From: Geomonas ferrireducens
Lineage (GTDB): Bacteria > Desulfobacterota > Desulfuromonadia > Geobacterales > Geobacteraceae
Reading direction: 5' to 3'
Length of the DNA stretch: 64,000 nucleotides
NCBI RefSeq assembly: GCF_004917065.1
Contig: NZ_SSYA01000001.1
Span: 886,550 to 950,549 of the forward strand
The notes below the pieces were generated by a model. That model was given only the letters and a program-made list of their open reading frames with translations. It was not told where the DNA came from and searched no databases. Each line of letters begins with the position of its first letter. Position 1 is the stretch's first letter. A program made the position numbers and the translations under genes. Below, piece after piece: positions 19,529-59,165 of this stretch.

Positions 19529-19725
19529 ACTTACTTGCTCTCTCTGCGTTGTCCGTGAGGTTATTAACGCCCCTGCGGAATAATTTTTTGTACGGGAGCC
19601 TGTTTCGGTCGTGGTGTGCTGCCCCATTGCGCGGGAATTGCCTAAAGCGACCTACAGGAACCCACCTGAATGGGAACTCGCTGTGAGGCCCCCCAACCAA
19701 ACGACAAGGCGGAGAGAGCTGTAGC
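19529..19725 (+). ncRNA. ssrS: 6S-like RNA
   Basis: This roughly 190-nt transcript has no coding frame, its own promoter and a strong terminator. Its ends close into a long stem: CTCTCTCTGCGTTGTC near 19538-19553 pairs with GACAAGGCGGAGAGAG at 19703-19718. A mostly double-stranded rod with internal openings fits between them. Length, overall fold and isolated gene status match 6S RNA, which binds sigma-70 RNA polymerase in stationary phase. The identification rests on structure and size only. A covariance search with the 6S family model would settle it. Confidence 0.65.
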
Positions 19726-36016: not shown

Positions 36017-36058
36017 ACCGCCGTCGGCAGCAACACTGCCGACGGCGGTTTCTTTTTG
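36017..36058 (+). terminator. Intrinsic terminator
   Basis: A perfect 14-bp stem (starting ACCGCCGTCGGCAG) with a CAACA loop is followed by TTCTTTTT. It lies after the lipoprotein gene. Confidence 0.93.
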
Positions 36059-36361
36059 CCCTCCAGCCAGCCCCCTTGATCGAAAGCCGACTCATGAATG
36101 AAGCAGGGTGCCACCCGTCGCAGCGGCAAGACAGATGCGCCAACGCATCCGCCCTACCTCTCATTGGAAAAATAACTTTATATTTTTCAAGCAATTTGGT
36201 ATTGTGGCGCGATTTTGTAGGACATAAGATGGCGGACATCTAAGCACACTCGGAAGTGCCCCTGGAGATCGACGCCGTAACCACTCGACAATATTGGTAT
36301 AACCAGTTTCCAACTAATCAAAGGAAGGCATGGTTCCATAGCTCACCTAAAGACATAGCTT

Positions 36362-36462
36362 ACTCCGATAACGGCAAACCCGGAGCAATCCGGCGACGCA
36401 AAGCCACGGGTCCACTGCAAGCAAGCAGGGGATAGCCGGGCTACCGAAGAGCATCTGGAGTC
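36362..36462 (+). ncRNA. GEMM-I cyclic-dinucleotide riboswitch aptamer, copy 1
   Basis: The RNA shows the GEMM-I hallmarks in order: GGCAAACC at 36373-36380, a stem CCGGA / TCCGG capped by a GNRA loop (GCAA), then GACGCAAAGCC, a second hairpin and the GCCGGGCTACCGA segment. An outer stem ACTCC (36362-36366) / GGAGT (36457-36461) closes it. GEMM-I RNAs bind c-di-GMP, and a Geobacter subgroup binds 3',3'-cGAMP. The base just 5' of GGCAAACC is C, so I cannot assign the ligand by eye. A terminator follows, which implies transcriptional control. Confidence 0.95.
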
Positions 36463-36500
36463 AGGCCCGCAAGGGAAAGCTGCGCTTTCCCACCGGATAG

Positions 36501-36540
36501 AGATGCCCGTCTCCATTTATATGCAGACGGGTATTTTTGT
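36501..36540 (+). terminator. Expression-platform terminator of GEMM copy 1
   Basis: CCCGTCT (36506-36512) pairs with AGACGGG (36525-36531) and is followed by TATTTTTGT. A second hairpin, GGGAAAGC / GCTTTCCC at 36473-36490, lies between aptamer and terminator and may take part in switching. Confidence 0.85.
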
Positions 36541-36632
36541 ATCATAAGTATGAAAGCGTGAAAGCTGGCTTATAAAGTTTTCAACCGATCAAAGGAAGGC
36601 ATGGTTCCATAGCTCACCTAAAGACATAGCTT

Positions 36633-36732
36633 ACTCCGATAACGGCAAACCCGGAGCAATCCGGCGACGCAAAGCCACGGGTCCACTGCGAGCAGCAAGG
36701 GATAGCCGGGCTACCGAAGAGCATCTGGAGTC
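36633..36732 (+). ncRNA. GEMM-I cyclic-dinucleotide riboswitch aptamer, copy 2
   Basis: This aptamer is nearly identical to copy 1, offset by 271 bases, with GGCAAACC at 36644-36651, the same GNRA-capped stem, GACGCAAAGCC and the outer stem ACTCC / GGAGT. The main difference is in the second hairpin, where the loop of copy 1 (CTGCAAGCAAGCAG) is changed to a shorter CTGCGAGCAG. The base before GGCAAACC is again C. It is followed by its own terminator and then the DUF11 operon. Confidence 0.95.
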
Positions 36733-36770
36733 AGGCCCGCAAGGGAAAGCTGCGCTTTCCCACCGGACAG

Positions 36771-36813
36771 AGATGCCCGTCTCCATTTTCATATGCAGAC
36801 GGGTATTTTTGTA
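36771..36813 (+). terminator. Expression-platform terminator of GEMM copy 2
   Basis: CCCGTCT (36776-36782) pairs with AGACGGG (36797-36803), followed by TATTTTTGT. It is about 110 bases upstream of the first DUF11 gene. Confidence 0.85.
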
Positions 36814-36924
36814 TCAGAAACATGAAACTCAGCAAATAGCCGTATAAGCGACACTTATGACGAAAACAAAGAAAAACTAATCCGTGCAAAAACAAGAGCA
36901 CAACGAGCACAACAAGGAGAAGAA

Positions 36925-37422
36925 ATGAAAAGAACCAGTAGGTTATTCGCAGGCGCCGTAGGTTTGATACTGGCGGCAATGCCGCTGTCCGCATGGGCGC
37001 AGCCCAAGGTGGCCATCACCATCAAGGCCGAGAAAGAGGTGAGTGTCACCGCCAAGGGGAAACAGGTTAAGAAACGGGTCGCGGCCAAAGGAGTGCAGCC
37101 GGGCGAGGAGATCATCTACACCCTCAACTACGTCAACTCCGGTACCGATGCCGCCAAAGACGTGATCATCAGTGATCCGATCCCTGCCGGGACCTCGTAC
37201 ATCCCAGGCAGCGCGAGCGAGACCGGCGACCTCTCATTCTCCATCGACAAGGGGAAAACCTTCAAGAAGCCGACACTGCTCACCTACGAGGTGAAGGGGA
37301 GCACCGGGAAACCGGAGAAGAAGGTGGCGTCCCCGGACGATTATACCGATGTGCGCTGGACCATCCCCCAGGTGCCTGCAGGTGGCAAGGGATCGGTCAG
37401 CTTTAAGGTAAAAGTGAAATAG
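36925..37422 (+). CDS. Exported DUF11-domain protein (small)
   Basis: This 165-residue protein has a signal peptide cleaved near AWA-Q (residue 25). It is made of a single DUF11-type beta-sandwich: VQPGEEIIYTLNYVNSG, then VIISDPIPAGTSYIPGSA and a C-terminal strand ending SFKVKVK. DUF11 domains are typical of long surface proteins. AAGGAG stands five bases before the ATG. It is the first gene after the tandem riboswitches, so its expression should depend on the cyclic dinucleotide level. Confidence 0.85.
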   Translation: MKRTSRLFAGAVGLILAAMPLSAWAQPKVAITIKAEKEVSVTAKGKQVKKRVAAKGVQPGEEIIYTLNYVNSGTDAAKDVIISDPIPAGTSYIPGSASETGDLSFSIDKGKTFKKPTLLTYEVKGSTGKPEKKVASPDDYTDVRWTIPQVPAGGKGSVSFKVKVK

Positions 37423-37481
37423 TTATCAACGCAGAACGACTAGAGGAAAACAAAACGACAAGTTACGTACAAAGGAGGCAT

Positions 37482-37496
37482 ATGACACAAGACTAA
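37482..37496 (+). other. Four-codon mini-ORF behind a strong ribosome site
   Basis: AAAGGAGG is followed three bases later by ATG ACA CAA GAC TAA. This is either a relic of a deleted gene start or a ribosome-loading site between the first and second DUF11 genes. I cannot say whether it is translated. Confidence 0.35.
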
Positions 37497-37508
37497 ACCG
37501 AAGCCCCA

Positions 37509-37601
37509 CAGAATCAGCAGAATCAGCAGAATCAGCAGAATCAGCAGTAACAGCAGTAACAGCAGTAACAGCAGTAACAGCAGTAACAGCAGTAACAGCA
37601 G
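37509..37601. repeat. 9-bp tandem repeat array in the DUF11 operon
   Basis: Four copies of CAGAATCAG are followed by six copies of CAGTAACAG and a final CAG. The array lies in the 225-base gap between the first and second DUF11 genes, ending 46 bases before the next ATG. The two half-arrays differ by two base changes per unit, so each seems to have expanded separately. Confidence 0.95.
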
Positions 37602-37647
37602 GACCTTTTATTTTTTATTGAAATGAAGCAGTACAAAAGGAGATCTT

Positions 37648-39087
37648 ATGAAACGCAACCTTTTTGCCGTCCTGGCGCTCAGCGCCGTGGCGGCAGCCGC
37701 CGTTCCCGCCACGGCACTCGCCAACACTTCCGCCGGCGCTAAAGTGGTCAACGTAGTCGAAGTCACCTACAGCGACACCAGCGGCAACAACAAATTCACC
37801 GCAGCAGCCTCCACCACCACCACGGTAAACCTGGTGCAGTCGGCACTTAATGCGACCACCGCCCCTTCCAACGGCACGGTAGGCGGCCTTGGCTGCCTTG
37901 GCACCGTGGATACCGTGTCCGGCGGTACGGTTTCCGCGATCTACGCCCTTAGCGCAACGGCCAACGGCGCGGACACCTATACCCTCACCATGGGAGACAA
38001 CACCCCCAGCACCACCGCAAACGTAACAGACATCACCAGGACCTACACCACACTGACCTACAACGGCGGTGTTGAGACGGTTAACCCCGGCTCCAGGATC
38101 CTCGGCAGCGCCATCCCGGTCGGCGTGAGCGCGGCTGACACCCTTCTCTTCCCGGGCGGCTCGCTGAGCGGCTTTGAGCAGAACGACATAGTCCTCGTGG
38201 AAGTAGCAGAAGGCAGCGGCAAGGTGAAACGCGCCTACAAGGTCCTTGCAGTTACCCCTGGATCACCGGCCACCTACGACAACAACGACGGAGTCACCGG
38301 CTACACCACCGGTGCGTTATCCGACGCAAAACCTGAGGTGAAAGGCTCCCTGAAACTGGGTGCTTACGAAAACACCACCGTGACACTCAACGGTTCTACG
38401 TTCACCTTCGGCGGCAACAGCATCGCACCGGCCTTCACCACCCCGGCCACCGCTCCCACCATGGGAGTGCCGGTCGGAGAAATGGTGCTGGTAAAGGTCG
38501 ACGTCAAAGCCAGCGCATCGAGCATTACCAATGATGGTCTGGTCGGCTACACCCTCACTGCCACCAACGGTACTAAGAGCACCGACCTCACCTGCACCGC
38601 AAGCTTCTACAAGCGCAGCCAGCTCTCCATCCAGAAACAGGTGCGCAACACCGCCGGCGGCGTTTGGGGCGGGACCGCAACCGGCAACCCGGGTGACATC
38701 CTTGAATACAAGATCACCGTCAAGAACATCGGCGGACAGGCAGCGAAGGTCAGCATCAAGGACGCAGTCCCGGCCTACACCACGCTCGTTACCAACGGCA
38801 ACAACTTCGCAACCATCACCGACTCCCTCGGCAAAAGCGTGACGGTCACCACGGCCGTGGACGCTGAGGGGCAGCCGACTTCCATCAATACCGGCTTCGG
38901 CGATGCAGTCCCGACCGATACGAACAGGGCCATAAACTTCTACCTGGGCGATACCTCCAGCCAGTCCGCTGGCGGAACAGTACCTTCCTGCAGCAGCGCC
39001 ACTGCGGCAACGCAGAGCGAGTGCACGACCAAAGGCGGCACTTGGCTTGATACCTACACCATCCTCTATCAGGTCAAGATCGACTAA
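37648..39087 (+). CDS. Exported DUF11-type surface protein
   Basis: This 479-residue protein has a signal peptide (cleavage near ALA-N, residue 26). An N-terminal segment (AKVVNVVEVTYSD) resembles those of the next two genes. A long Thr/Ser/Gly-rich beta region and a DUF11 domain at about 325-420 (GNPGDILEYKITVKNIG...) follow. The last residues are TILYQVKID. Composition and repeats fit an extracellular fibrous or matrix protein. AAAAGGAGATCTT precedes the ATG. Confidence 0.8.
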   Translation: MKRNLFAVLALSAVAAAAVPATALANTSAGAKVVNVVEVTYSDTSGNNKFTAAASTTTTVNLVQSALNATTAPSNGTVGGLGCLGTVDTVSGGTVSAIYALSATANGADTYTLTMGDNTPSTTANVTDITRTYTTLTYNGGVETVNPGSRILGSAIPVGVSAADTLLFPGGSLSGFEQNDIVLVEVAEGSGKVKRAYKVLAVTPGSPATYDNNDGVTGYTTGALSDAKPEVKGSLKLGAYENTTVTLNGSTFTFGGNSIAPAFTTPATAPTMGVPVGEMVLVKVDVKASASSITNDGLVGYTLTATNGTKSTDLTCTASFYKRSQLSIQKQVRNTAGGVWGGTATGNPGDILEYKITVKNIGGQAAKVSIKDAVPAYTTLVTNGNNFATITDSLGKSVTVTTAVDAEGQPTSINTGFGDAVPTDTNRAINFYLGDTSSQSAGGTVPSCSSATAATQSECTTKGGTWLDTYTILYQVKID

Positions 39088-39139
39088 CCGTCCGGCGTCC
39101 CGGCCGCTACGGTGACCGGGACGCCGCAGGAGGCATCCC

Positions 39140-40399
39140 ATGAAGTTTTTCGGCAAGAAGTGGCTGGCGCCTGCGCTGGCCGCTACGGCGGTGTTGTGCG
39201 CCCAGGCTGCGTTCGCCAGCACAGCTGCCAATACCGCCATCGTGAACAAGGCGGTCCTTTCCTATAACGGGGGGCTCACCGCCGAGAGCTCGGTCACGGT
39301 CAAGGTCGACCTGGTACCGTCGCTCCCCAACGTCACCATCACCAGCGGCAGCGGCGCCTACCAGGGCCCCGATACCCCCGCAATCTCGAACACGGTCACC
39401 GTGACCTCGTCCGCGAACGGCCCGGCCGACTACACGGTTACCCCGTCAGTGGCAGCTGCGAGCAACACCACCGGTGCAACCGTTACCGGCGGCACGAGCA
39501 TCAAACTCGGTGCGACCATCACCGCCGGCACCGGTACCACCACCTCCATCGTGGTCCCGGCCCCGATCGGGGGTGCCATCACCGCCGACGCCGAGGTGAA
39601 CGGCATCGCCGTGAACGACATCATCGTCTTCACGGTGAACAACCACACCTACACCCCAAAGGTGACGTCGACCCAGTACAACTCGGCCAACAACACCTTC
39701 ACCATCAACTGGGCCAACACCCAGGCGATCGCCTCTACCGACGTCCTCAGTGCGGGCGTGCAGGTCGGCGAGCGCCAGGAGGTTACCCTCACCGCGAAGC
39801 CCGGCACCATCGCCACGCTCGGCCTGGACATCACCACCACGGTGAAGGCGGAGGTCACCGCGACCAACTTCCCGACCAATTCCGCCACCACCGCGCCGGC
39901 GGACAAGTGGACCTCCACGCCTCCGACCATCACATTCCAGAAGTACTCCAGGAACGTGTCGTCGCCGGTCACCGGCAGCGGCACCCCGCACTACAACTCC
40001 TCCATCGAGGGGAACACCGGCGCGGGCTCGCTTCCCTACTTCACCGGCGGGGTCACCGGGAAACCTGACGACGTGATCGAGTACGTCATCGAGGTGTCCA
40101 ACAGCGGGGCCAGCACCTTCGACCTCACCACGTGCGCCGTCTCGGACCACATTCCGACCGCCTACGTGACCGATCCGCTGCCGGCCTACACCGGCTCCCG
40201 TGCGATCTTCTACATAGACACCAACGCCGCCGCTTCCACCATCGCCGCCGGCGCCGTCGGCGCCAACCAGGCGAGCTACGTAGCAGGCAACTCCCCGAAC
40301 CTGATCGTCAACGTCGGAGATGGCGCCAACGCCACCACCGCCGGGACCATCCCGAAAGGCAAAGGGATTGCCGTGGCTTACCGCGTGAAGATCAAGTAG
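39140..40399 (+). CDS. Exported DUF11-type surface protein
   Basis: This 419-residue protein has a signal peptide (cleavage near AFA-S, residue 29) and an N-terminal module ANTAIVNKAVLSYNG like that of its upstream neighbour. A Thr/Val-rich beta domain and a C-terminal DUF11-like segment (KPDDVIEYVIEVSNSG) follow, ending AVAYRVKIK. The gene starts after GCAGGAGGCATCCC, 52 bases behind the previous stop. It appears to be a diverged paralogue of the previous gene. Confidence 0.8.
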   Translation: MKFFGKKWLAPALAATAVLCAQAAFASTAANTAIVNKAVLSYNGGLTAESSVTVKVDLVPSLPNVTITSGSGAYQGPDTPAISNTVTVTSSANGPADYTVTPSVAAASNTTGATVTGGTSIKLGATITAGTGTTTSIVVPAPIGGAITADAEVNGIAVNDIIVFTVNNHTYTPKVTSTQYNSANNTFTINWANTQAIASTDVLSAGVQVGERQEVTLTAKPGTIATLGLDITTTVKAEVTATNFPTNSATTAPADKWTSTPPTITFQKYSRNVSSPVTGSGTPHYNSSIEGNTGAGSLPYFTGGVTGKPDDVIEYVIEVSNSGASTFDLTTCAVSDHIPTAYVTDPLPAYTGSRAIFYIDTNAAASTIAAGAVGANQASYVAGNSPNLIVNVGDGANATTAGTIPKGKGIAVAYRVKIK

Positions 40400-40420
40400 G
40401 AGCATAACGGCAGCGTGATG

Positions 40421-43400
40421 ATGAAACGGATCTGCAACATCTTGAGCAGTCTCTCCGGCCTTCGGGCCGGGGAACTTGCCGGCGCCAGTGGTCGCCGGCC
40501 TAGTCGCGGTGCGTCTGCGCCGCGGGCTGCGCTAGAGTTGCGTCCGAAGCTGCGCCACATCCCTGCCTCGCTGACACTTCTCATCCTCTCCCTTCTCCTG
40601 CTGTTCGGGGGAAGGGAGGGCCTGGCCGCCGTGAACGGCGTTCAGATCGTGAACCGCGCCACTTTCAGTTGCAGCCAGCTTCCGGAAGTTACGACCCAGG
40701 TAACGGTGACGGTGATGGCGCGCACCAGTTCGACCGCGGAGTTTCTCAAGTACTCACCAGGCGTGACCGGTGCAAGCAGCGTCACCGTCCCTGTCACCTC
40801 CTTCTACGACGCGACCGGCACGCTCGCCAAGCTCGCCGCACCGGTCACCTCTGGAACCGAGAGCACGATCGACCTCTCCGCGCCGGTGCAACTATCCGCT
40901 TCCGACACATTCCACGCCGGTGAGCCCCTCTTCGTCAGGATCACCGATCCGGACCAGAACCTGGATAGGGAAAGCGCCGAAAGTGTGAAGGTGACGATCA
41001 CCGATCCCGCTACCGGCGACAGCGAAAACCTGCTGCTCACGGAAACCGGTCCTGATACCGGCATCTTCGTCGGCTACATCCAGACTACGTCCCAGACGGG
41101 CGTTGCCGGCAACGGTGTCCTCAGCGTGGCCGAGGCCTCCGACATAAGGGCACGGTATGTCGACAAGGTGGACGGCAGTGACAGCTCCGCGGCCGCCGCC
41201 ATCGTCGACCCCTTCGGTATCGTCTTCGATTCAGTGACCGGACGACCAGTCGACGGTGTCACCGTAGAACTCATCGACGCCGGCACCGGGCTTGGCGCCA
41301 CGGTCCTGGGCGACAACGGTGTCGCCGGCAACCTCTTCCCGAACAAGGTCGTATCCGGCGGTATCGCCCACGACAGCGAGGGGAGAACCTACGCTTTCAG
41401 CCCGGGGGGATACCGTTTCCCGTACGTCGCTCCGGGCAACTACATCCTCAAGGTCACGGCGCCGGACCGCTACACCGCCCCCTCCACGGTCGACACCGCG
41501 AAGCTGCAAACCCTCTCCGGGGCGCCGTACAAGATCCTGGAGCCCGGTTCGCGCGGTGAGGTCTTCGTGGTACCGGCAGGCCCCGCGATACGCGTCGACC
41601 TACCGATCGATCCGAAGATCGGCACCCTCTGGCTCAAGAAGAATGCCGGCAAGAGCATCGTTTCCACCGGCGAGTACCTGAGCTACGACGTCGCGGTGCA
41701 GAACACCGACTCGGTCGGCACCGTCTTCAACACCGTGATCACCGACAAGCTCCCCGCCGGGTTCCGCTACCAGAAGGGGTCCGTCCGCCTGAACGGCTCC
41801 GCCGTGGCAGATCCCGCGATCTCCGCCGACGGCAGCACGCTGACCTTCAGGATCGGCGACCTCGGTCCGCAGAGCACGGCACTTCTGCGTTATGTCGTCG
41901 TGGTCGGTACAAGCGCGAGACCCGGCACCGCGGTGAACATCGCTTCGGCCACAAGCACACCCGCCGTCAGCGCGACACCGGCCACCGCTTCCGTAACGGT
42001 GCAGGAGCCGTTCATGCAGAGCCGCAACATCATCATGGGGCGCGTCTTCGTGGGCGCCTGCGGCGAGAACCCTGAGGACAACAAGAAAGGGATGGAAGGA
42101 GTCGGGATCTACCTTGAGGACGGCACCTTCGTGGTGAGTGACAAGCGCGGCATGTTCCACTTCGAGGGAGTGGCCTCGGGCACGCACGTAGTGCAGCTCG
42201 ACATCGACTCCCTCCCCGAGGGTTACCAGGTGCAGCAGTGCGAGAAGAACAGCCGTTTCGCCGGGCGCGCTTACTCGCAGTTTGCCGAGATGCAAGGCGG
42301 CACCATGTGGCGCACCGACTTCTACCTCTCCCGGCTGGGTAACAAGGGCGCCACCGCAGACGCAGTGCCGACCGTAACCGCCGAGAAAACCAGCGCGTCC
42401 GCCCCAGCCACCGCGTCCGCAGTAACCACCTCTGCTGCAAGCGCGCCCAAGGCAACGGCATCCACGGCCACGGCAACCGCGTCCACGGCATCCACGGCAT
42501 CCACGGTCACCGCAGCGCCGCCAGTGGAAGACCCGAGATATCAAGGCGAAGTCGCTCTGGAGATGATCAGCTCCCAAAGCGGTGAAGTAATTGAGTACCG
42601 GATACCGATGCAGGCTGCCGGCGTCCCCCTGCAGAAGCTGCGTCTCGCCGTTCTTCTCCCGCAGGGAGTGAGCTACCGCAAGGGAAGCAGCAACCTGGGC
42701 GGCCTCCCGCACCCCGACCCCGAGAACACCGGAAACCGCCTCATCTTCGATCTCGGTGCTGCCGACGCCGCTTGGGTCAAAGAACTCCGTTTCAAGGCAG
42801 GCATCGACGGTGCAGCGCAAGGAGCCCTGCAGACGAGGGCGACCCTGTCCTTTGACACCCCAGACGCGAAAGGTGTTGCCGCCCCTGAGACAGACAACGT
42901 CCTCTCTCTCGTACGCGAAGAAAGCCGCGTTTCGCTTCCGCCGATGGTGCTGCGCCCGCACTTCCCGACCTTCGGCGCCGAGCTCAACGAAGAGGACCGC
43001 AAGCAGCTCGCAGCGCTGGCCGACCTACTCAAGCAATACAATATCGACCGGATCGACGTAACCGGGCACACCGACCAGGTCCGCATCTCCCCGCGCAGCC
43101 GCGCCGTCTATGCGGACAACACCGCCCTTTCCTTCGCCCGCGCGAAGAACGTCGGGCGTTACCTGACCGCCGCGCTGCACCTACCGCCCGAGGCGCTTTA
43201 TCTTACCGGCCGGGGCGAGAAGGAGCCGGTAGCAAGCAACAGGAGCGAAGCCGGGCGCGCGCAGAACCGTCGCGTGGAAGTGAAGGTCTCGCTCTCCCGA
43301 CAGGTGCAGACGAGCCGGGTGACCATGGTGAAAGACAGAAGCGGCGTGAAGAAGCAGCCGTTGGCCGGTAGCAAACCGGCAGCCATACCGGCTGGGGCAT

Positions 43401-46400
43401 CCGCGGCTGCACCCGCACCCGCACCGGTCGCCACAACCGTACCGGCAGCGACAGCAGCGACAGCAGCGACAGTAGCCCAGGTAGCTCCGGCAACTGCCGC
43501 GCATCCGACCAGTCCGACCAGTCCGACCAGTCCGACCAGTCCGACCAGTCCGACAGCTACGACAGCTGCGGCGCCTGCTGCCGCAGCCCTTAAGGCAGAG
43601 CGCGTCGAGCTCTACTCAGCCCTTAACGAGGGTGTTGTGCACCACCGCATCAAGCTGGCCGGCATGGACCAGGCGCTCAAGAACGTCACGGTGAACCTCG
43701 CGCTCCCGAAGAGCCTCCTCTACATGAACGGCACCTCCCGCCTGTGCGCGAGCGAAACCGCTGACCCGAAAGTCACCGACACCGAACTGATTTACCACTT
43801 CGAAAAGCTCCCGAAGGACGGCAAATTCGACCTGCGCCTGCAGTCGCTCCTCGACCCCGACGTCAAGGAGGAGAACTCCAACACCAACGTCACCGTCCGG
43901 ATCTGCGACGCCGACGGTAAGGCGATCAAGACTCTCAGCGCCACTGCGGAACTCTCCGACAGCATGGACGATATCAACCGCCCCGATGTCGCGTCGCAGC
44001 CCCAGGCGGCACCGACCCCGGCAAAGATGAACGAGGAGACCAGCGTCGAGTTCGAGGAAAAAGTCGCCAAAGGAAAGGCCGACGCCGGCCAAGAGAAGGC
44101 GAACGACCTGCACGTAACCGACAAGGAAGGGATCCTGTCCCTCGCCGACGGCACCGTGCTCGCCTCCCAGATCAACGCGGTTCAGGTCGTGCTCAACTCG
44201 GCCCTCACCCCTGTGCTCATCCTGGACGGCCAGACCATCCCCGCAGAGAAAATCGGCTTCAAGCTGAAAGACAGGGAGAGCGACAAGAGCCTCTACACCT
44301 TCATCGGCTTGGACTTTGGTGACAAGGGGGAGCACATCCTCCGGCTCAAGGGGACGGACACCTTCGGCACTGTTCGCTTCGACCAGAGCGTGAAAGTGAT
44401 CAGGACAGGCGAGATTGCCGCTCTGCGCCTCGTCTCGGCGGACGGTAACGTCGCTGACGGCAGGACCCCGGTCATGGTGCGCATCGAGCTCATGGACCAG
44501 GACGGCAAGCCGGTCCCGGCAAACGCCCAGCTCGCACTGAAGGGGGGGGAGCTGCGCCCCTACATCGAGCCCGGCACCATCGCGGTCAGCGCAGGCAGCG
44601 GCCTCGCCTCGGTGGATGCCCAAGGGTGGATCAAGTTCCAGCCGGTTACCGCAAGCGGCGCGTATCGCACCCAGCTCTCCTACAACAAGGCGACCCTGGA
44701 TGTAGAGACCTACGTGAAGCCTAAGATGCGCGACTGGATCCTGGTCGGCCTCGCCGAAGGAACCGTCGGCTACAACACCGTGACCGGCCATATGCAGAAC
44801 CTCAAGGATGCAGGGGCAGACGAGCACCTCTACGACGACGAGCGCCTCGCCTTCTACGCCAAGGGAAGCGTCAAGGGGGAGTGGCTCCTCACCATGTCCT
44901 ACGACAGCGCCAAGAAGAGCACCGGCCCGAACGGGAACTCGCTGTTCCAGAACATCGACCCGAACGCCTTCTACACGCTCTACGGTGACGCGACGGCCCA
45001 GGCTTACGACGCCTCCAGCCAGAGGAAACTGTTCCTGAAGGTGGAGCGCGACCAGTTCAGCGCAGTCTTTGGCGACTTCGACACCGGCCTCTCGGTCACC
45101 GAACTTTCCCGCTACAGCCGCAGGCTGAACGGCGTGAAGACCGAATACCGCTCCAAGGAATTCGAGGTGACCGCCTTCGGCAGCGAGACCGGCCAGTCCT
45201 TCGTCAAGGACGAGTTGCGCGGCGATGGCACCTCCGGCCTTTATCGCCTGAGCCGCAAAGGCTTGGTGATCAACTCCGAACAGATCACCATCGAGTCCCG
45301 CGACCGCTTCCACAGCGAACGCGTGATCGAAAGCCGCACGCTTAGCCGCTTCATCGATTACAGCATCGATTACGAAGCGGGAACCATCTTCTTCAAGAGC
45401 CCGGTCTTCAGCAAGGACGATCAGTTGAATCCGGTCTACATCGTCGTCGACTACGAGGTGAGCGATGCCGGCGGCGAGGCACTCACCTACGGCGGGCGGG
45501 CCGGCGTGAAGCTCATGGACGGCAACCTGCGCATCGGGGGGAGCTACATCCGCGAGGGGCACATAAGCGGGGACAGCACGCTCTACGGCGCCGACGCCAG
45601 CATGAACGTCGGGCCGGGTACCAAGGCGCGCGCCGAGATCGCCACATCCAGGCGCGACACCCCGCTGGAGAAGGACAGCGGCAACGCTTACCTGGCCGAG
45701 ATCACCCACCTCGACCAGAAGCTCGAGGGAAAGGCGTACTACCGCGAACAGCAGGAAGGGTTCGGCCTGGGACAGCAGAAGGGGACCGAGTCCGGCACCC
45801 GCAAGTTCGGCGCCGAGGGGAGCTACCGGCTGAGCGAGAGGTTCACCCTGGAAAGCCAGTTCTACCGCCAGTACAACCTGGTCGGCGACAGCGTCAGGGA
45901 TTTTGTCGAGGCGCAGGCAGGTTACGCCGATAAGGAGTTCACCGGGAAAGCCGGATTGCGCTACGCCAACGACACCCTGGCAGGCGGCAACAACGACACC
46001 TCGGTGCTTGGTACCGTGGGGGGAAGCTGGAAGACCTTGAACCAGCGCCTGACCCTGCGTGCCGAGCATGAGCAGGCACTGCTCAGCAAGAACAACAACG
46101 CCGACTACCCGACCCGCACCGTGTTAGGCGCCGACTTCCAGGTCATACCGTCGCTGCTGCTCTTCGCCCAGCAGGAACTCACCAGCGGCGATGCCGCGGA
46201 CACCAACACCACCAGGGTCGGGATGAAATCCACCCCCTGGACCGGCGGAACCCTCTCGAGCTCGGTCGGCAGCGACCGCAAGGAGAACGACCAGAGAACC
46301 TTCGCGACCGTAGGACTCGCCCAGAAATGGCAGGTAAACAGCTTCTGGTCCGTCGACGGCGGCCTCGACCGCAACCAGACTATCCGCAGGAGTACCGGCT

Positions 46401-47179
46401 ACCAGTTCGACGCGAAGGTCCCCTCCGCCTCGGGCGGCGAGGACTTCAGCGCCGTATCGCTCGGCGCCACCTACCAGGAGAAGAGACTCCTGTGGTCCAA
46501 CCGGATCGAGTACCGCGACGGAGAGAGCGAAGACAAATGGGGACTCATCTCCGGACTTACCAACGAGCAGGGGCTCTACTGGGGTTGGACCGGAAGGCTG
46601 CAGGTGCTGCAGACCAGAGGCATCGACGGCTCCCGTACCACCGATGCCGACCTGCGACTGGGGATGGCGTACCGGCCGCCGGTCACCCGCTGGATCGTGC
46701 TCGACCGCCTCGACCTGACCTTCAAGGACACCAAGAGCAGCGGGAGCTCGACCCAGGGCAAAAGGATAATCAACAACCTGAACGCCAACTTCCGCCCGGA
46801 CAAGCGCAACCAGCTTTCGCTGCAGTACGGCGCTAAGTACGTTTTGGAACAGCTGGACGATGACGATTTCAGCGGCTACACCGATCTCATCGGCATCGAG
46901 GGACGCCACGACCTGAGCGACACCTGGGACATCGGGCTACGCAGCTCGGTGCTGCACAGTTGGCAGGCACACCAGGCGAATTACAGCCTGGGCGCCTCGG
47001 TCGGCTGTAACGTCATGCAGAATGCCTGGCTCAGCCTGGGCTACAACCTGCTCGGTTTCCGCGATGCCGATTTCTCGGCCGCGAACTACACCGCACAGGG
47101 CCCCTTCGTCCAGTTCCGCTTCAAGTTCGACCAGAACAGCGTGAAGGAAGGGCTGGCCGCGCTGAACCGCGGCGAGTAA
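40421..47179 (+). CDS. Giant DUF11/OmpA-domain outer-membrane barrel protein
   Basis: This protein of about 2,250 residues has an unusually long N-terminal extension (about 48 residues) before a hydrophobic export helix (SLTLLILSLLLLF). Visible modules, in approximate residue positions, are: a beta domain (70-330); a DUF11 domain (395-500); a CnaB/SdrD-like beta domain (515-600); an OmpA-like peptidoglycan-binding domain (840-960, with DVTGHTDQVRISPRSRA); a Pro-Thr-Ser linker (1028-1050); further beta domains; and a large C-terminal region from about 1430, rich in alternating aromatic strands, consistent with an outer-membrane barrel. The protein could anchor or export the DUF11 proteins encoded around it. 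Start choice among GTG 40415, ATG 40418 and ATG 40421 is uncertain; no strong ribosome site is visible. Confidence 0.8.
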   Translation: MKRICNILSSLSGLRAGELAGASGRRPSRGASAPRAALELRPKLRHIPASLTLLILSLLLLFGGREGLAAVNGVQIVNRATFSCSQLPEVTTQVTVTVMARTSSTAEFLKYSPGVTGASSVTVPVTSFYDATGTLAKLAAPVTSGTESTIDLSAPVQLSASDTFHAGEPLFVRITDPDQNLDRESAESVKVTITDPATGDSENLLLTETGPDTGIFVGYIQTTSQTGVAGNGVLSVAEASDIRARYVDKVDGSDSSAAAAIVDPFGIVFDSVTGRPVDGVTVELIDAGTGLGATVLGDNGVAGNLFPNKVVSGGIAHDSEGRTYAFSPGGYRFPYVAPGNYILKVTAPDRYTAPSTVDTAKLQTLSGAPYKILEPGSRGEVFVVPAGPAIRVDLPIDPKIGTLWLKKNAGKSIVSTGEYLSYDVAVQNTDSVGTVFNTVITDKLPAGFRYQKGSVRLNGSAVADPAISADGSTLTFRIGDLGPQSTALLRYVVVVGTSARPGTAVNIASATSTPAVSATPATASVTVQEPFMQSRNIIMGRVFVGACGENPEDNKKGMEGVGIYLEDGTFVVSDKRGMFHFEGVASGTHVVQLDIDSLPEGYQVQQCEKNSRFAGRAYSQFAEMQGGTMWRTDFYLSRLGNKGATADAVPTVTAEKTSASAPATASAVTTSAASAPKATASTATATASTASTASTVTAAPPVEDPRYQGEVALEMISSQSGEVIEYRIPMQAAGVPLQKLRLAVLLPQGVSYRKGSSNLGGLPHPDPENTGNRLIFDLGAADAAWVKELRFKAGIDGAAQGALQTRATLSFDTPDAKGVAAPETDNVLSLVREESRVSLPPMVLRPHFPTFGAELNEEDRKQLAALADLLKQYNIDRIDVTGHTDQVRISPRSRAVYADNTALSFARAKNVGRYLTAALHLPPEALYLTGRGEKEPVASNRSEAGRAQNRRVEVKVSLSRQVQTSRVTMVKDRSGVKKQPLAGSKPAAIPAGASAAAPAPAPVATTVPAATAATAATVAQVAPATAAHPTSPTSPTSPTSPTSPTATTAAAPAAAALKAERVELYSALNEGVVHHRIKLAGMDQALKNVTVNLALPKSLLYMNGTSRLCASETADPKVTDTELIYHFEKLPKDGKFDLRLQSLLDPDVKEENSNTNVTVRICDADGKAIKTLSATAELSDSMDDINRPDVASQPQAAPTPAKMNEETSVEFEEKVAKGKADAGQEKANDLHVTDKEGILSLADGTVLASQINAVQVVLNSALTPVLILDGQTIPAEKIGFKLKDRESDKSLYTFIGLDFGDKGEHILRLKGTDTFGTVRFDQSVKVIRTGEIAALRLVSADGNVADGRTPVMVRIELMDQDGKPVPANAQLALKGGELRPYIEPGTIAVSAGSGLASVDAQGWIKFQPVTASGAYRTQLSYNKATLDVETYVKPKMRDWILVGLAEGTVGYNTVTGHMQNLKDAGADEHLYDDERLAFYAKGSVKGEWLLTMSYDSAKKSTGPNGNSLFQNIDPNAFYTLYGDATAQAYDASSQRKLFLKVERDQFSAVFGDFDTGLSVTELSRYSRRLNGVKTEYRSKEFEVTAFGSETGQSFVKDELRGDGTSGLYRLSRKGLVINSEQITIESRDRFHSERVIESRTLSRFIDYSIDYEAGTIFFKSPVFSKDDQLNPVYIVVDYEVSDAGGEALTYGGRAGVKLMDGNLRIGGSYIREGHISGDSTLYGADASMNVGPGTKARAEIATSRRDTPLEKDSGNAYLAEITHLDQKLEGKAYYREQQEGFGLGQQKGTESGTRKFGAEGSYRLSERFTLESQFYRQYNLVGDSVRDFVEAQAGYADKEFTGKAGLRYANDTLAGGNNDTSVLGTVGGSWKTLNQRLTLRAEHEQALLSKNNNADYPTRTVLGADFQVIPSLLLFAQQELTSGDAADTNTTRVGMKSTPWTGGTLSSSVGSDRKENDQRTFATVGLAQKWQVNSFWSVDGGLDRNQTIRRSTGYQFDAKVPSASGGEDFSAVSLGATYQEKRLLWSNRIEYRDGESEDKWGLISGLTNEQGLYWGWTGRLQVLQTRGIDGSRTTDADLRLGMAYRPPVTRWIVLDRLDLTFKDTKSSGSSTQGKRIINNLNANFRPDKRNQLSLQYGAKYVLEQLDDDDFSGYTDLIGIEGRHDLSDTWDIGLRSSVLHSWQAHQANYSLGASVGCNVMQNAWLSLGYNLLGFRDADFSAANYTAQGPFVQFRFKFDQNSVKEGLAALNRGE
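43440..43556. repeat. In-frame short repeats in the giant gene
   Basis: A GACAGCAGC-type repeat (about 43446-43475) and five copies of the 9-bp unit GACCAGTCC (about 43507-43552) encode Ala/Thr-rich and Pro-Thr-Ser linkers. Unit changes keep the frame, so repeat slippage would change linker length rather than shut the gene off. Confidence 0.88.
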
Positions 47180-47307
47180 CACCAGCAGAAAGTCGCTAAC
47201 CCCTGGTCCTTTTGCCCCGCACACAAGCGCTGTGGCGCGGAAGCGCGCGAGGGCGGCCGCAGACCGGGTGAGGGTCTCCCTCGCGGCTTCACTTGTAGGA
47301 GAAGTAG

Positions 47308-49914
47308 ATGCCCAAAGGTTTCAACAAACATAAAAACCGTCCCGGGTTCCGATCATGGCGTCGCGCCTCCCTTGCCGCTCTTTTCTGCGTCATGGCCGCG
47401 CCCTCCCTCGGCCAGGCTCTCACCACCAGTGCGTGGCAGGACCAGACCTGCGTCGGCTACCGCACCGGCGGCCTTAACTGCACGGCCGGGGAATTCACCA
47501 TAGCCCCCGTGTTCACGGCACAGGCCAACACCCCGCCTTTCTGCACCCTGGGGAGCGACTTCCGCTTCAAGGTGGAACTCGGACTCTCCGGCACCAACAC
47601 CGACCGCTACGATATCGGCTTCTTCGTCGGACAGCAGGGGAACGATCCCCGCGACACGACTCCGGGCAACATCTGTTCCGTAGCCACCTTCCCGACCAGC
47701 CCGAGCCCGTGGCTCAACCTGGACGGGGACGGCTGCGGCGACTTCAAGGGTGGGGCGAACTTCATCACGACCGTCGACGAGATAAAGGTCCTCTGCACCG
47801 GTGACAGCACCGGCGCCCTGAAGATCCCATACGTCGTCACCTACTGGCAAAACCCCGGCAACGTCTGCACAGGCCCCGGCGACGTCAGCAATGGTTCCCC
47901 TTCCAAGTGCAACGCCGGGATCGCCACCGTAGCAGGTAACGTCTCGGTTTATAGCGGCGCTTTTGTCGACGTGACCAAGCAGACCCTGCCCGACGGCAGC
48001 ACCCAACCCTTCACCTTCACCGCCACGGGCCCGGCAGGCTCGAAAGTGGTCGTTCTCACCGGAGCCACCCTGTCGGGAACCTCCGCCACGGGAGGTACCT
48101 ACACTCCGGCGACCATCGCTACCGCAAGCAACAGCGTCAGCTTCACCCTGCGGGACAACGAGACGGCGCGCGTGTTCATCAGCGCCCTTACGACCGACCA
48201 GACCCTCACCATCACCGAGACCGCCGCCGGCAACGACTGGGACAACACCGCCGCGATCAGCTGCGCACCGGTCGCCGGGAGCCCGGCCCTCAGCACGAGC
48301 CCGGCGGACCGTAGCATCAGCGCCACGCTCAATACCACGAACAGTGGCGCGGCCTGCACCGTCACCAACACGAAGCGTCCGCGCATCACCTTGGTGAAAA
48401 GCGTTGCCGGTCGCATCAGCACCGGGGACCAGTTCACGGTAAGCGCAACCGGCGGCGGCACCCTTTCCGGCACCGCCTCGGCCACCACCTCAGGCACCCT
48501 GAGCAGCGTCAGCACCGTATTCAACTCTTCCCCGGATACCGCACTCACCCTGAACGACGTGAAGTCGGCGGGAACCACCGCAGCTTCAAAATACGCGGCG
48601 ACCCTCACCTGCAGCAACGCGTACACCGGCACGGGTGCCACCCCCGCAGCAAACCTTCCGAACCAGCTGTTCGCCGCCAGCTACACCTTCGCGCCGAAGG
48701 CCGGGGATGAACTTACCTGCACCTTCACCAACACGCCGCGCCCGACCCTCACGAAAAGTTATACGAGCGGCAACATCGCGATAGGCGGCAGCAGCACGCT
48801 GACCTTCAACGTCGTGAACGAGCCGACCTCGAAACCGGCCCAATCCACCCTTGCCTTCACGGATGCCTTCCCCGCAGGGCTGACGGTAACCGGTGTCACC
48901 GGCATATCCGGCACCGGTTGCAGCGGTACGCCCTCCTACACCGCCTCGTCCGTCGCCCTCGCCTCCGGATCGATGACCCAGGGCACCTCGACCTGCAGTT
49001 TCAGCGCGACGGTCCGGGGAGATGCGGCGGCCTCCTACTTGAACAACAGCACGAGGTTCAGCGGCCAAGGGGGCGGGCTCGACACGAGCAGCACCAGCGC
49101 CACGCTCAACGTCTTCACCCCTCCGGCGACGGCGAAATCCTTCGGCTCCGCCAATGTCTCCCCCGGGGCACCGGTCGGCCTCACGCTCGTTCTGACCAAC
49201 CCGGCAGCCAACGCAGCCCCCCTGACCGGCGTCAGCGTCACCGACAGCTTCCCCGCAGGAATGGTGCTGCGCGACACGAGCACAAGCTTCATCCCCGCCG
49301 GCTGCGGCAGCGTAACCAACACCTCCGGCGGCCAGATCGCCGCGAACAACGCCGGGGTCCGTTTCTCCGCGGCATCGCTCGCACCCGGGGCCAGCTGCCA
49401 AGTCACCATGAACGTAACGGCATCCGGTACGGGAACGGTGACCAACACCACCGCCGCACCTCTCGCCACCGGTCCAGTCTCCCTCACCGGAACCAGTGCC
49501 TCGGCCGCGGTGAGCCTTTCGATGATGCCGCTCATCTCCATCCTCAAGACCGCCAACCTCGCCACCGTCAATTCCGGAGAGGATGTCATCTACACCATTC
49601 AACTGGTCAACAGCGGTGCCGGCCCCGGGAGCAACGTCGTCCTGACCGATGACCTCGGTCCCTACACCTCACTCTACCTGGGCGGCGGCACCCCATTCGG
49701 CTTCACCGACAGTGCCCCCGCGTCCGGGGTCTCCCTCGGGGCACCTCAATATTCGAGCGACAAGGGCGCGAGCTGGACCTACGTCCCGGCGACCGGCTCA
49801 GGCGGCGCACCGCTCGGGTACGACGGCAACGTCACCGGCTGGCGCATCCCGATGACCGGCAACATCAGATCCGGCGGGAGCTTCACCCTGCAATACCGGG
49901 TGAAAGTGAAGTAA
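47308..49914 (+). CDS. Exported DUF11-repeat surface protein
   Basis: This 868-residue protein has a long basic n-region and an export signal (SLAALFCVMAAPSLGQA). A Cys-containing N-terminal domain (about 40-220) is followed by at least three Ig-like or DUF11-type domains: one around SYTSGNIAIGGSSTLTFNV, one around GSANVSPGAPVGLTLVLTN, and one at the C-terminus, NSGEDVIYTIQLVNSG. It ends TLQYRVKVK. GTAGGAGAAGTAG precedes the ATG. It is the last gene of the DUF11 operon. No clear terminator is visible before the tRNA promoter. Confidence 0.82.
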   Translation: MPKGFNKHKNRPGFRSWRRASLAALFCVMAAPSLGQALTTSAWQDQTCVGYRTGGLNCTAGEFTIAPVFTAQANTPPFCTLGSDFRFKVELGLSGTNTDRYDIGFFVGQQGNDPRDTTPGNICSVATFPTSPSPWLNLDGDGCGDFKGGANFITTVDEIKVLCTGDSTGALKIPYVVTYWQNPGNVCTGPGDVSNGSPSKCNAGIATVAGNVSVYSGAFVDVTKQTLPDGSTQPFTFTATGPAGSKVVVLTGATLSGTSATGGTYTPATIATASNSVSFTLRDNETARVFISALTTDQTLTITETAAGNDWDNTAAISCAPVAGSPALSTSPADRSISATLNTTNSGAACTVTNTKRPRITLVKSVAGRISTGDQFTVSATGGGTLSGTASATTSGTLSSVSTVFNSSPDTALTLNDVKSAGTTAASKYAATLTCSNAYTGTGATPAANLPNQLFAASYTFAPKAGDELTCTFTNTPRPTLTKSYTSGNIAIGGSSTLTFNVVNEPTSKPAQSTLAFTDAFPAGLTVTGVTGISGTGCSGTPSYTASSVALASGSMTQGTSTCSFSATVRGDAAASYLNNSTRFSGQGGGLDTSSTSATLNVFTPPATAKSFGSANVSPGAPVGLTLVLTNPAANAAPLTGVSVTDSFPAGMVLRDTSTSFIPAGCGSVTNTSGGQIAANNAGVRFSAASLAPGASCQVTMNVTASGTGTVTNTTAAPLATGPVSLTGTSASAAVSLSMMPLISILKTANLATVNSGEDVIYTIQLVNSGAGPGSNVVLTDDLGPYTSLYLGGGTPFGFTDSAPASGVSLGAPQYSSDKGASWTYVPATGSGGAPLGYDGNVTGWRIPMTGNIRSGGSFTLQYRVKVK

Positions 49915-50056: not shown

Positions 50057-50133
50057 CGGAATGTAGCGCAGCCTGGTAGCGCACCTGCTTCGGGAGCAGG
50101 GGGTCGGAGGTTCGAATCCTCTCATTCCGACCA
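50057..50133 (+). tRNA. tRNA-Pro (anticodon CGG)
   Basis: The cloverleaf can be read directly. The acceptor stem is CGGAATG / CATTCCG, the anticodon arm is CCTGC-TTCGGGA-GCAGG with anticodon CGG, and the T-arm is GGAGG-TTCGAAT-CCTCT. The 3' CCA is encoded. It decodes CCG. Its 3' half (from the anticodon loop) is the integration site of the island that follows, and the copy kept here is complete, so the tRNA should be functional. Confidence 0.97.
50089..50133. other. attL: 45-bp tRNA-Pro 3' half
   Basis: This repeat is identical to 59121-59165. It starts at the anticodon loop (TTCGGGAGCAGG) and ends with the CCA of the tRNA. Confidence 0.95.
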
Positions 50134-56060: not shown

Positions 56061-56413
56061 CGGGAAACACAGGAACTGATGGCGCACTTTTCGTATCGGC
56101 AGCCGTCTGGCCTCGCAGAGCAGGATACCCGTTGAGCGCGCAGCGCGAATAAGGGGACGGTTAAGGGGGGCAACCGGCTTGCCGGGTGGCCACCTTCACC
56201 TATCCTGCCCTGCTCTGAACGACGATTTTCTCAATACGAATTTCGACCACGTCGCAATTTCACCCTGATTTTCCAATAAACAGACGCCGATCAATAAAAA
56301 TTTTCAAATAATACGGCAGAATTTCGCAAAATATTGCCCGATACATAGAAGTTAGTCTGAAATCGCGAAAAATCTCGGTCCGACACCATGAAAACGCTGC
56401 AGATGAAGGAAGC
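56061..56413. other. Non-coding stretch between remnants and abiF-like gene
   Basis: There is no credible gene. The part around 56215-56340 is AT-rich. Confidence 0.35.
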
Positions 56414-57574: not shown

Positions 57575-58912
57575 CTATGCATCCAGGTTCCTGCGTAGCC
57601 TGATGACTTTGCTTGCTGTTGCCAGATAAGCACCATCAATGGCCGCCCCTGTAACGATGGCCAACAGCTCTCGCTCCCAGGACTCTAAGGCTGCCTGTTT
57701 CTCGTGGTCATAGGCGTATCGGTTGTACACCTTGATGATGCCCTTTTTGAGATGGGCCAGTACTGCATCGACAGTCTCATCTGGGTATCCGATACGTGCG
57801 ATCATCGTGGCGCCGGTACGGCGCAAGTCATGGGGGGTGAAGTGGTCCATGTCGATCTTGCGTTCCTCCTTCACCTTCACCATTTTGGGGACGTCCCCAG
57901 CCTTGGGGTTTGAAGATGGCTTGCGCCGGGTGTACCCCTTGATGTTGCGCCGTATGGCGTAGGCCAGCGACCTTTCGGTGATGTGGCCTCCGGTCGTCGG
58001 CGAGGGGAAGATATACCCATCCTCGTTGCCGATCAATCTGAGGGCCAGGTCGGTGAGATAGACCCTCTGAGGCCTCGGCCTCTCGCGGGTCACCTTGGTG
58101 CTTTTCGGCATGAACTCCCACCAGCGCCCCTTGATCTGGGAGCGGTGCATCGCCACCACCTCGCCTGGACGCTGGCAGGTCACCAAAATGAGTTTCAAGG
58201 CACGGCGCGTTGCGTCGCTCATGGAAGCGTTGTTCACGCCCTCCCAGAAGATCCGGATCTCTTCGGCATCGAGGTTACGCTCGCGGCTGGCGACAACCGG
58301 CAACTCATCATCCTTCTCAAAACCGATGCAGGGTGACTGGCCGACTATCTCCTGCTTCACGGCGTACCTGAACATGCGGCGGATGATTTTGAAGGTATTG
58401 AGAGTGATGGCGGGGCCGCGCCTCTTCATACCTTCGACGAGAAGCAGGACATCCCGACGCTCGATATCCCTTGCCTTACGGTCTCCCCACACCGGCAGCA
58501 CGTCCTTTTCGAGGATTCTCTTATCCTCCGCCCAGGTCTTCTTTTTCTCCTTGGCGAAATTCTCAACATACTCCTCGACCAGCCGCGCTATGGTCGGGCG
58601 CTTTCTGATCTCGTCCCGCTCCTGTCTCTCCCTGTCCAGCCTTTGGGCTCTCTCGCCCAGCGGATCGCGTGGGTTGCCTGGGTCGTGCAGCATGGCGTAC
58701 GCCGCGGCGTGGGCCGCGCGCGCCTCGGCGAGCGTTTGCGCAGGATAGGTCCCCAGGTTCAGTTGCCGCCTCTGGCCATCAAAGGTGTAGATGAAGAGAA
58801 AGGTCTTTTGGCCCGTTGGCAGCACCCTGATCGCGAAGCCCCGACGCTCCCTTTCCACATACTGCTTCGACCTCGGTTTCAGACTCGCAACATACCTGTC
58901 CGTGAAATCCAT
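57575..58912 (-). CDS. Tyrosine recombinase (island integrase)
   Basis: This 445-residue integrase has an N-terminal arm-binding domain (about 1-90, including FAIRVLPTGQKTFLFIY), a core-binding domain (about 110-205), and a catalytic domain with Arg in CQRPGEV, HDLRR (His-x-x-Arg) and the nucleophile Tyr region KVYNRYAY. The ATG at 58912 is chosen because GGAG precedes it by about eight bases. The frame is open further upstream only because it runs through the tandem arm repeats. It reads away from attR into the island. Confidence 0.93.
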   Translation of the reverse strand: MDFTDRYVASLKPRSKQYVERERRGFAIRVLPTGQKTFLFIYTFDGQRRQLNLGTYPAQTLAEARAAHAAAYAMLHDPGNPRDPLGERAQRLDRERQERDEIRKRPTIARLVEEYVENFAKEKKKTWAEDKRILEKDVLPVWGDRKARDIERRDVLLLVEGMKRRGPAITLNTFKIIRRMFRYAVKQEIVGQSPCIGFEKDDELPVVASRERNLDAEEIRIFWEGVNNASMSDATRRALKLILVTCQRPGEVVAMHRSQIKGRWWEFMPKSTKVTRERPRPQRVYLTDLALRLIGNEDGYIFPSPTTGGHITERSLAYAIRRNIKGYTRRKPSSNPKAGDVPKMVKVKEERKIDMDHFTPHDLRRTGATMIARIGYPDETVDAVLAHLKKGIIKVYNRYAYDHEKQAALESWERELLAIVTGAAIDGAYLATASKVIRLRRNLDA

Positions 58913-58925
58913 TTTTGTCTCCGGG

Positions 58926-58978
58926 AGAGGTTGCATGGCCGCCGTGCAACCTCTCGTGCAACCTCTCGTGCAACCTCT
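58926..58978. repeat. Integrase arm-type repeats, right end
   Basis: Three perfect tandem copies of CGTGCAACCTCT (58943-58978) are preceded by one inverted copy, AGAGGTTGCA (58926-58935). The inverted copy lies just upstream of the integrase start, so integrase could also repress its own gene. Confidence 0.85.
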
Positions 58979-59120
58979 AGGGGGTGAAATGCGTTGAAAA
59001 AAAGCGAACGCCCCTGCACAGTTTATAGCCAAAAAACCTATATTAGTCAACCAGATAGACCCTGCTAATGGCATGAATTGAAACTAATCGAAACGTCCTG
59101 AAAAGGCTATATTTGATTAT

Positions 59121-59165
59121 TCGGGAGCAGGGGGTCGGAGGTTCGAATCCTCTCATTCCGACCAT
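59121..59165. other. attR: 45-bp tRNA-Pro 3' half
   Basis: This is the right copy of the 45-bp repeat. It lacks the tRNA 5' half, so it is not a tRNA gene. Confidence 0.95.

Follow-up and report, generated by a model that had tools for sequence, protein, structure and literature searches.

Tandem c-di-GMP-I riboswitches precede an operon for a giant predicted outer-membrane barrel protein in Geomonas ferrireducens

A five-gene operon for exported proteins behind two riboswitches

The window analysed here is a 64,000-nucleotide stretch of Geomonas ferrireducens DNA. Five genes, which we call A to E, lie on one strand and 3′ of both riboswitches:

36925..37422, forward strand: gene A, 165 aa, exported DUF11 protein
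37648..39087, forward strand: gene B, 479 aa, exported, hypervariable, with a DUF11-type repeat
39140..40399, forward strand: gene C, 419 aa, exported, all-beta, with adhesin/pilin-like Ig folds among its matches
40415..47179, forward strand: gene D, 2254 aa, with DUF11/SdrD-like regions, an OmpA domain (aa 854–952) and a C-terminal predicted barrel
47308..49914, forward strand: gene E, 868 aa, exported DUF7933/SpaA_3/DUF11 protein

A terminator scan detected no terminator-like sites on the forward strand between A and E, and placed a terminator at 36017–36049 that sets the operon apart from the preceding gene. Upstream of the riboswitches is one further element:

36177..36205, forward strand: promoter-like TTTATA-17-TATTGT, 5′ of both riboswitches, in a block nearly invariant among eight Geomonas

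The DNA surrounding this block has otherwise diverged among the eight Geomonas. Its hexamers were picked by eye and match at 8 of 12 positions, which is under the threshold of the promoter scan. The position of the conserved block fits a single promoter 5′ of both units with two gates in series, an arrangement to which the comparison between species lends support. The first-pass annotation of this DNA had proposed riboswitch control of a surface-protein operon, serial aptamer and terminator units, and one protein of about 2,250 residues. These proposals are supported by Rfam aptamers, terminators and five exported genes on the same strand, by two near-identical copies that each end in a strong intrinsic terminator, and by gene D at 2254 aa.

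The riboswitch pair arose by a recent duplication

The leader consists of two repeated units, each with an aptamer and a terminator:

36298..36570, forward strand: duplicated unit, copy 1 (blastn), with TATAA at 36298
36571..36842, forward strand: duplicated unit, copy 2, with TATAA at 36571 and again at 36843
36364..36449, forward strand: GEMM-I / c-di-GMP-I aptamer 1, 63.6 bits, G20 at 36373
36635..36719, forward strand: GEMM-I / c-di-GMP-I aptamer 2, 62.6 bits, G20 at 36644
about 36503..36539, forward strand: intrinsic terminator 1, fold z = −7.4
about 36773..36811, forward strand: intrinsic terminator 2, fold z = −7.2

The repeat has an offset of 271 nt, and its segments are 94–98% identical, with 90% over the last 40 nt. 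The blastn comparisons (ortholog loci L076 and L077; neighbouring genomes G010 and G001) align the window sequence from 36571 on, and also the sequence up to 36575, with one and the same single-copy stretch, the overlap being the 5-nt TATAA at 36571–36575. The two window copies share states absent from both of these neighbours. By covariance model search, each of the seven other Geomonas orthologs has a single aptamer preceding the operon. Taken together, the single-copy relatives, the TATAA overlap and the states common to both copies indicate that the pair is a recent 271-nt tandem duplication at TATAA microhomology, in this genome alone. Two other origins of the doubling are ruled out: a conserved tandem design, since 7/7 other Geomonas orthologs are single-copy, and an assembly artefact, given the sequence differences between the copies and the exact junction.

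With two complete units of the same class, each with its own expression platform, the leader is a tandem riboswitch, an arrangement already known for c-di-GMP-I riboswitches before surface genes. A survey of this class lists 347 doublets and 12 triplets, and cites a triplet from B. thuringiensis (PMC9481103). The window pair resembles the surveyed systems in placing complete aptamer–terminator units of one class serially before one operon, with a steeper response expected, but differs in being one recent doubling in one genome, in having a mini-ORF within the unit and in its giant DUF11/OmpA-barrel target (PMC9481103).

c-di-GMP is the expected ligand

Both aptamers belong to Rfam family RF03167 (c-di-GMP-I-GGC; E about 1e-12); the Rfam GEMM search of the leader, suggested in the first pass, returned two aptamers above the gathering threshold, which for this family is 59 bits in the covariance model search. 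Residue C92 presumably corresponds to the first C in UACCGAAG, judging from the resemblance to Vc2. We anchored Vc2 numbering on PMC3764141 (C22–G45 pair, P2 loop at 32–35 and A47–49), such that aptamer column 10 is position 20, a G in both window copies, and column 37, an A in the window aptamers, is A47. Variation between A, C, G and U at column 9 among the orthologs was ruled out as a shift in ligand specificity, that column being position 19 (PMC3764141).

G20 marks the c-di-GMP form of the aptamer and A20 the cGAMP form (PMC6456294; PMC9481103). Because both window aptamers carry G20, c-di-GMP is the ligand to be expected for the pair. The first-pass annotation had named both nucleotides; of these, c-di-GMP is the more likely here, neither copy having the A20 that characterizes GEMM-Ib.

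The 4.8-Mb genome contains 15 GEMM-I aptamers, ten with A20 and five with G20, the latter being the window pair and those of L001, L004 and L015. The ten A20 aptamers have the motif UACU, or one near it, and look like cGAMP sensors. This bacterium probably uses both c-di-GMP and cGAMP signals, given that one of its GGDEF proteins (L112) has the Hypr-type serine signature GHLIGS...GGDEY. The same protein and the ten A20 aptamers are what would be expected if the window aptamers were themselves GEMM-Ib and sensed cGAMP, joining the operon to the Geobacter Hypr/cGAMP pathway, and A20 aptamers indeed precede two more distant operons of the same type (L084 and L088). However, G20 is found in all aptamers before the closer orthologs, including both in the window and those of all other Geomonas, and an A20-to-G change in Geobacter switches preference from cGAMP to c-di-GMP (PMC6456294), which makes cGAMP sensing here improbable. 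GSU2885 (omcAHG) of the related organism Geobacter sulfurreducens also has tandem GEMM-I transcriptional switches before outer-surface genes, but these are GEMM-Ib aptamers with A20 that sense cGAMP and precede cytochromes, whereas the window operon has G20 and no cytochrome (PMC6456294).

The expression platform suggests ON switching

Between aptamer and terminator, each unit contains a candidate antiterminator strand:

36457..36466, forward strand: antiterminator strand 1, GGAGUCAGGC, able to form 8 of 10 pairs with the 5′ arm of the terminator
36727..36736, forward strand: antiterminator strand 2, identical to copy 1

None of 200 shuffles folded as well as either terminator hairpin, and such hairpins are plain in three orthologs that a filtered script scan had passed over. 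Positioned 3′ of the aptamer, GGAGUCAGGC is able to pair with GCCCGUCUCC in the terminator 5′ arm. In an alignment of seven variants, 84% of cells are paired, compared with at most 57% for slid versions, and two pairs show compensatory double changes among orthologs. The covariation score was reached by 13 of 500 shuffles, for seven sequences cut and aligned by hand of which three or four carry most of the changes. From this comparative support, which includes some covariation, we infer that the antiterminator pairs with the terminator 5′ arm. Folding of the ligand-free RNA favours an ACUCC:GGAGU pairing; the 5′ CUCC:GGAGU pairing is nearly invariant among orthologs and hence shows no covariation.

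We propose that transcription from a promoter near 36200 would yield a leader in which two c-di-GMP-I units, each a complete transcriptional ON switch, follow one another. In each unit, the CUCC immediately 5′ of the aptamer would pair either with the near GAG, forming P1 in the ligand-bound state, or with the far GGAGU in the ligand-free state. By fixing CUC to the near GAG, ligand would release GGAGUCAGGC for pairing with the 5′ arm of the terminator, polymerase would get past and read-through would rise. Genes A to E would be reached only past both terminators, such that full expression would need c-di-GMP at both sites.

The direction of a GEMM-I switch is set by its platform, and closely similar aptamers occur as both ON and OFF switches (PMC9262584). 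Were the window units OFF switches, ligand-stabilized P1 would remove the antiterminator and c-di-GMP would repress the operon; at the second locus described below (par1), the antiterminator strand does overlap P1, by two or three bases. In the window unit, by contrast, GGAGUCAGGC shares no bases with the P1 partner GAG, and the antiterminator strand is hidden in the ligand-free fold, both of which make repression unlikely. We favour ON switching, which is also the in vivo behaviour of Geobacter GEMM-Ib switches (PMC6456294). For tandem switches there is a published rationale for a sharper response (PMC9481103), which may apply here.

Mini-ORFs in the leader and in the A–B gap

Very short reading frames and a short repeat accompany the operon:

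36330..36341, forward strand: mini-ORF 1, ATG GTT CCA TAG, with AAGGAAGG 5′ of the start; in eight orthologs
36601..36612, forward strand: mini-ORF 2, copy of mini-ORF 1 inside the duplicated unit
37482..37496, forward strand: mini-ORF 3, ATG ACA CAA GAC TAA behind AAGGAGG, in the A–B gap
37515..37601, forward strand: 9-bp tandem repeat AGTAACAGC, before hypervariable gene B

The ATG of the leader mini-ORF, about 20–25 nt 5′ of the aptamer, is invariant in 8/8 Geomonas, with one to three further codons before the stop; a Shine–Dalgarno-like sequence is present in all Geomonas but G002. The peptides differ (MVP, MVS, MI, MMH and MH) and the stops vary too. The pattern recurs in five of six divergent leaders (shuffled mean 0.01), and the A–B gap has a mini-ORF in all eight Geomonas (shuffled mean 0.36; peptides MTQD, MTQN, MIQI, MTQ, MIKI and MPQN), counts that overstate independence because the orthologs are related, the turnover of codons and stops being the stronger sign. 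A scan of the whole window gave six sites of the mini-ORF type where three were expected, three of the six being mini-ORFs 1–3. The leader mini-ORF is absent from the other GEMM-I leaders examined. The mini-ORFs are a new element, which may serve to load ribosomes and so protect the long leader from Rho, or may act as a start–stop element. The copy number of the 9-bp repeat varies by species, from about ten here to none in G001, G002 and G017, and the repeat could tune expression.

Protein D models as a giant barrel among exported proteins

The OmpA domain of D scores 57.5 bits against a Pfam cut-off of 27.2 and is of the peptidoglycan-binding, OmpA-like type. The C-terminal 916 residues are modelled with a run of 32 long strands as a very large barrel, in a model of D that has a pTM of 0.44 and a pLDDT under 50 for about 19 percent of its residues. 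Foldseek matched D in partial alignments to LptD, SlpA of the S-layer complex, SprA, TonB receptors, the Mtr barrel and ushers; these generic, partial matches support an outer-membrane barrel of no specific family. The giant barrel protein anticipated by the first-pass annotation is retained in this form, as a very large predicted outer-membrane barrel with an OmpA domain, at modest confidence. SprA of the type 9 translocon, a very large outer-membrane barrel as predicted for D, is among these matches (Foldseek E 7e-6, 4e-5 and 6e-4), but its alignment is partial, with a TM-score of 0.24 or less and 7–8% identity, and other barrels match equally.

DUF11 was found in A and E by Pfam and a DUF11-type repeat in B and D by NCBIfam, so A, B, D and E all count as DUF11 proteins, defined by DUF11 or TIGR01451 above cut-off. 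Gene E has DUF7933 and SpaA_3 in addition; gene C has no family match in Pfam or NCBIfam. The domains of A, B, D and E are those of DUF11, SdrD-B and SpaA_3 surface proteins, from which D differs in adding the OmpA domain and the predicted C-terminal barrel. The model of C is all-beta (pLDDT 83), its matches include Ig-like domains from adhesins and pilins, and C shows no significant similarity to the N terminus of D. The C-terminal strand is similar in A, B, C and E. Protein B is 80% identical in G010 and 48% in G001, compared with 92–97% for A, C, D and E, a pattern suggestive of a surface antigen or receptor that is being exchanged or is diversifying.

A conserved module centred on D

Linkage between riboswitch and DUF11 genes in relatives had been set beforehand as a test of the first-pass proposal, and it holds: the order A-B-C-D-E is kept in 8/8 Geomonas, with GEMM-I upstream in 8/8. 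Gene A lies upstream of D in 17 family-1 ortholog loci (L076–L093; one genome has two) and in six of eight more distant loci, the other two being near contig ends. Across the phylum A and D occur together, mostly with an exported protein in between, forming an A-x-D module of a small DUF11 protein, an Ig-like exported protein and a giant OmpA/barrel protein. In L261, from a different family of the phylum, a single 2320-aa protein joins C to the N terminus of D. D has a patchy distribution: with its C-terminal 755 aa as query, it turned up in 29 of the 395 phylum genomes sampled, a count that takes in weak paralogs. In many genomes the distant phylum loci with the operon have no GEMM-I at the gathering score, which makes the riboswitch look like something added in Geobacterales.

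We propose that D forms a very large barrel in the outer membrane, held to peptidoglycan through its OmpA domain, and that A, B, C and E, as Ig-like exported proteins, would be displayed, anchored or helped to assemble by D, the products together forming a surface layer or adhesin coat. D could instead be a large anchored porin or adhesin whose neighbours are independent and share its regulation, with no assembly platform. Its structural matches are generic barrels, and no known secretion-system component was identified, as would be expected of such a protein; that A adjoins D across the phylum, that one genome has a C–D fusion and that A, B, C and E share a similar C-terminal strand argue against it. 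We consider independent neighbours a serious contender, although we lean the other way. For the whole model, serial c-di-GMP ON switches gating a D-centred surface layer or adhesin coat, we estimate a probability of about 60%; its ligand, ON direction, sharper response and role of D are the parts that we infer. A bolder and rather doubtful reading holds that the A-x-D module is an undescribed outer-membrane platform for assembly and display, with a barrel of roughly 32 strands in its giant protein, repeatedly placed under cyclic-dinucleotide riboswitches, and that the Geomonas mini-ORF of 2–4 codons with its Shine–Dalgarno sequence acts in the copied control cassette. If D is a display platform, it would be a testable new outer-membrane machine.

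These riboswitches would connect c-di-GMP, besides the cGAMP pathway known from Geobacter, with a giant surface-protein operon that is conserved among relatives of that genus. Both riboswitch copy number and probable ligand type change before operons of one type, and the giant module, the mini-ORFs and the between-lineage change of probable ligand type are worth following.

Other GEMM-I loci and neighbouring elements

A second operon of this genome (L094, C1:1774500-1794400) encodes giants of 2876 aa (DUF11) and 1732 aa (OmpA/barrel) behind a G20 GEMM-I. The number of G20 units at the second locus (par1) is one in this genome, two in most others and four in G006 and G018. A different GEMM-I, with A20, stands before a hemerythrin-like gene just upstream of the L094 operon. 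Elsewhere in the genome (L269), a G20 GEMM-I stands before three similar exported proteins of about 480–550 aa. Rfam also identifies a 6S RNA at 19538–19719 of the window.

An exact 28-nt repeat of the tRNA-Pro(CGG) 3′ end, at 50106–50133 and 59137–59164, brackets a 9-kb stretch directly 3′ of the operon. This contains an integrase-like gene (57575–59074), a KAP NTPase, a nucleotidyltransferase-domain protein and, judged by eye, TIR-like and Abi-like proteins, and is an integrative element resembling a defence island. Within it, Rfam finds a traJ-II RNA motif on the reverse strand (56109–56210; 82.8 bits).
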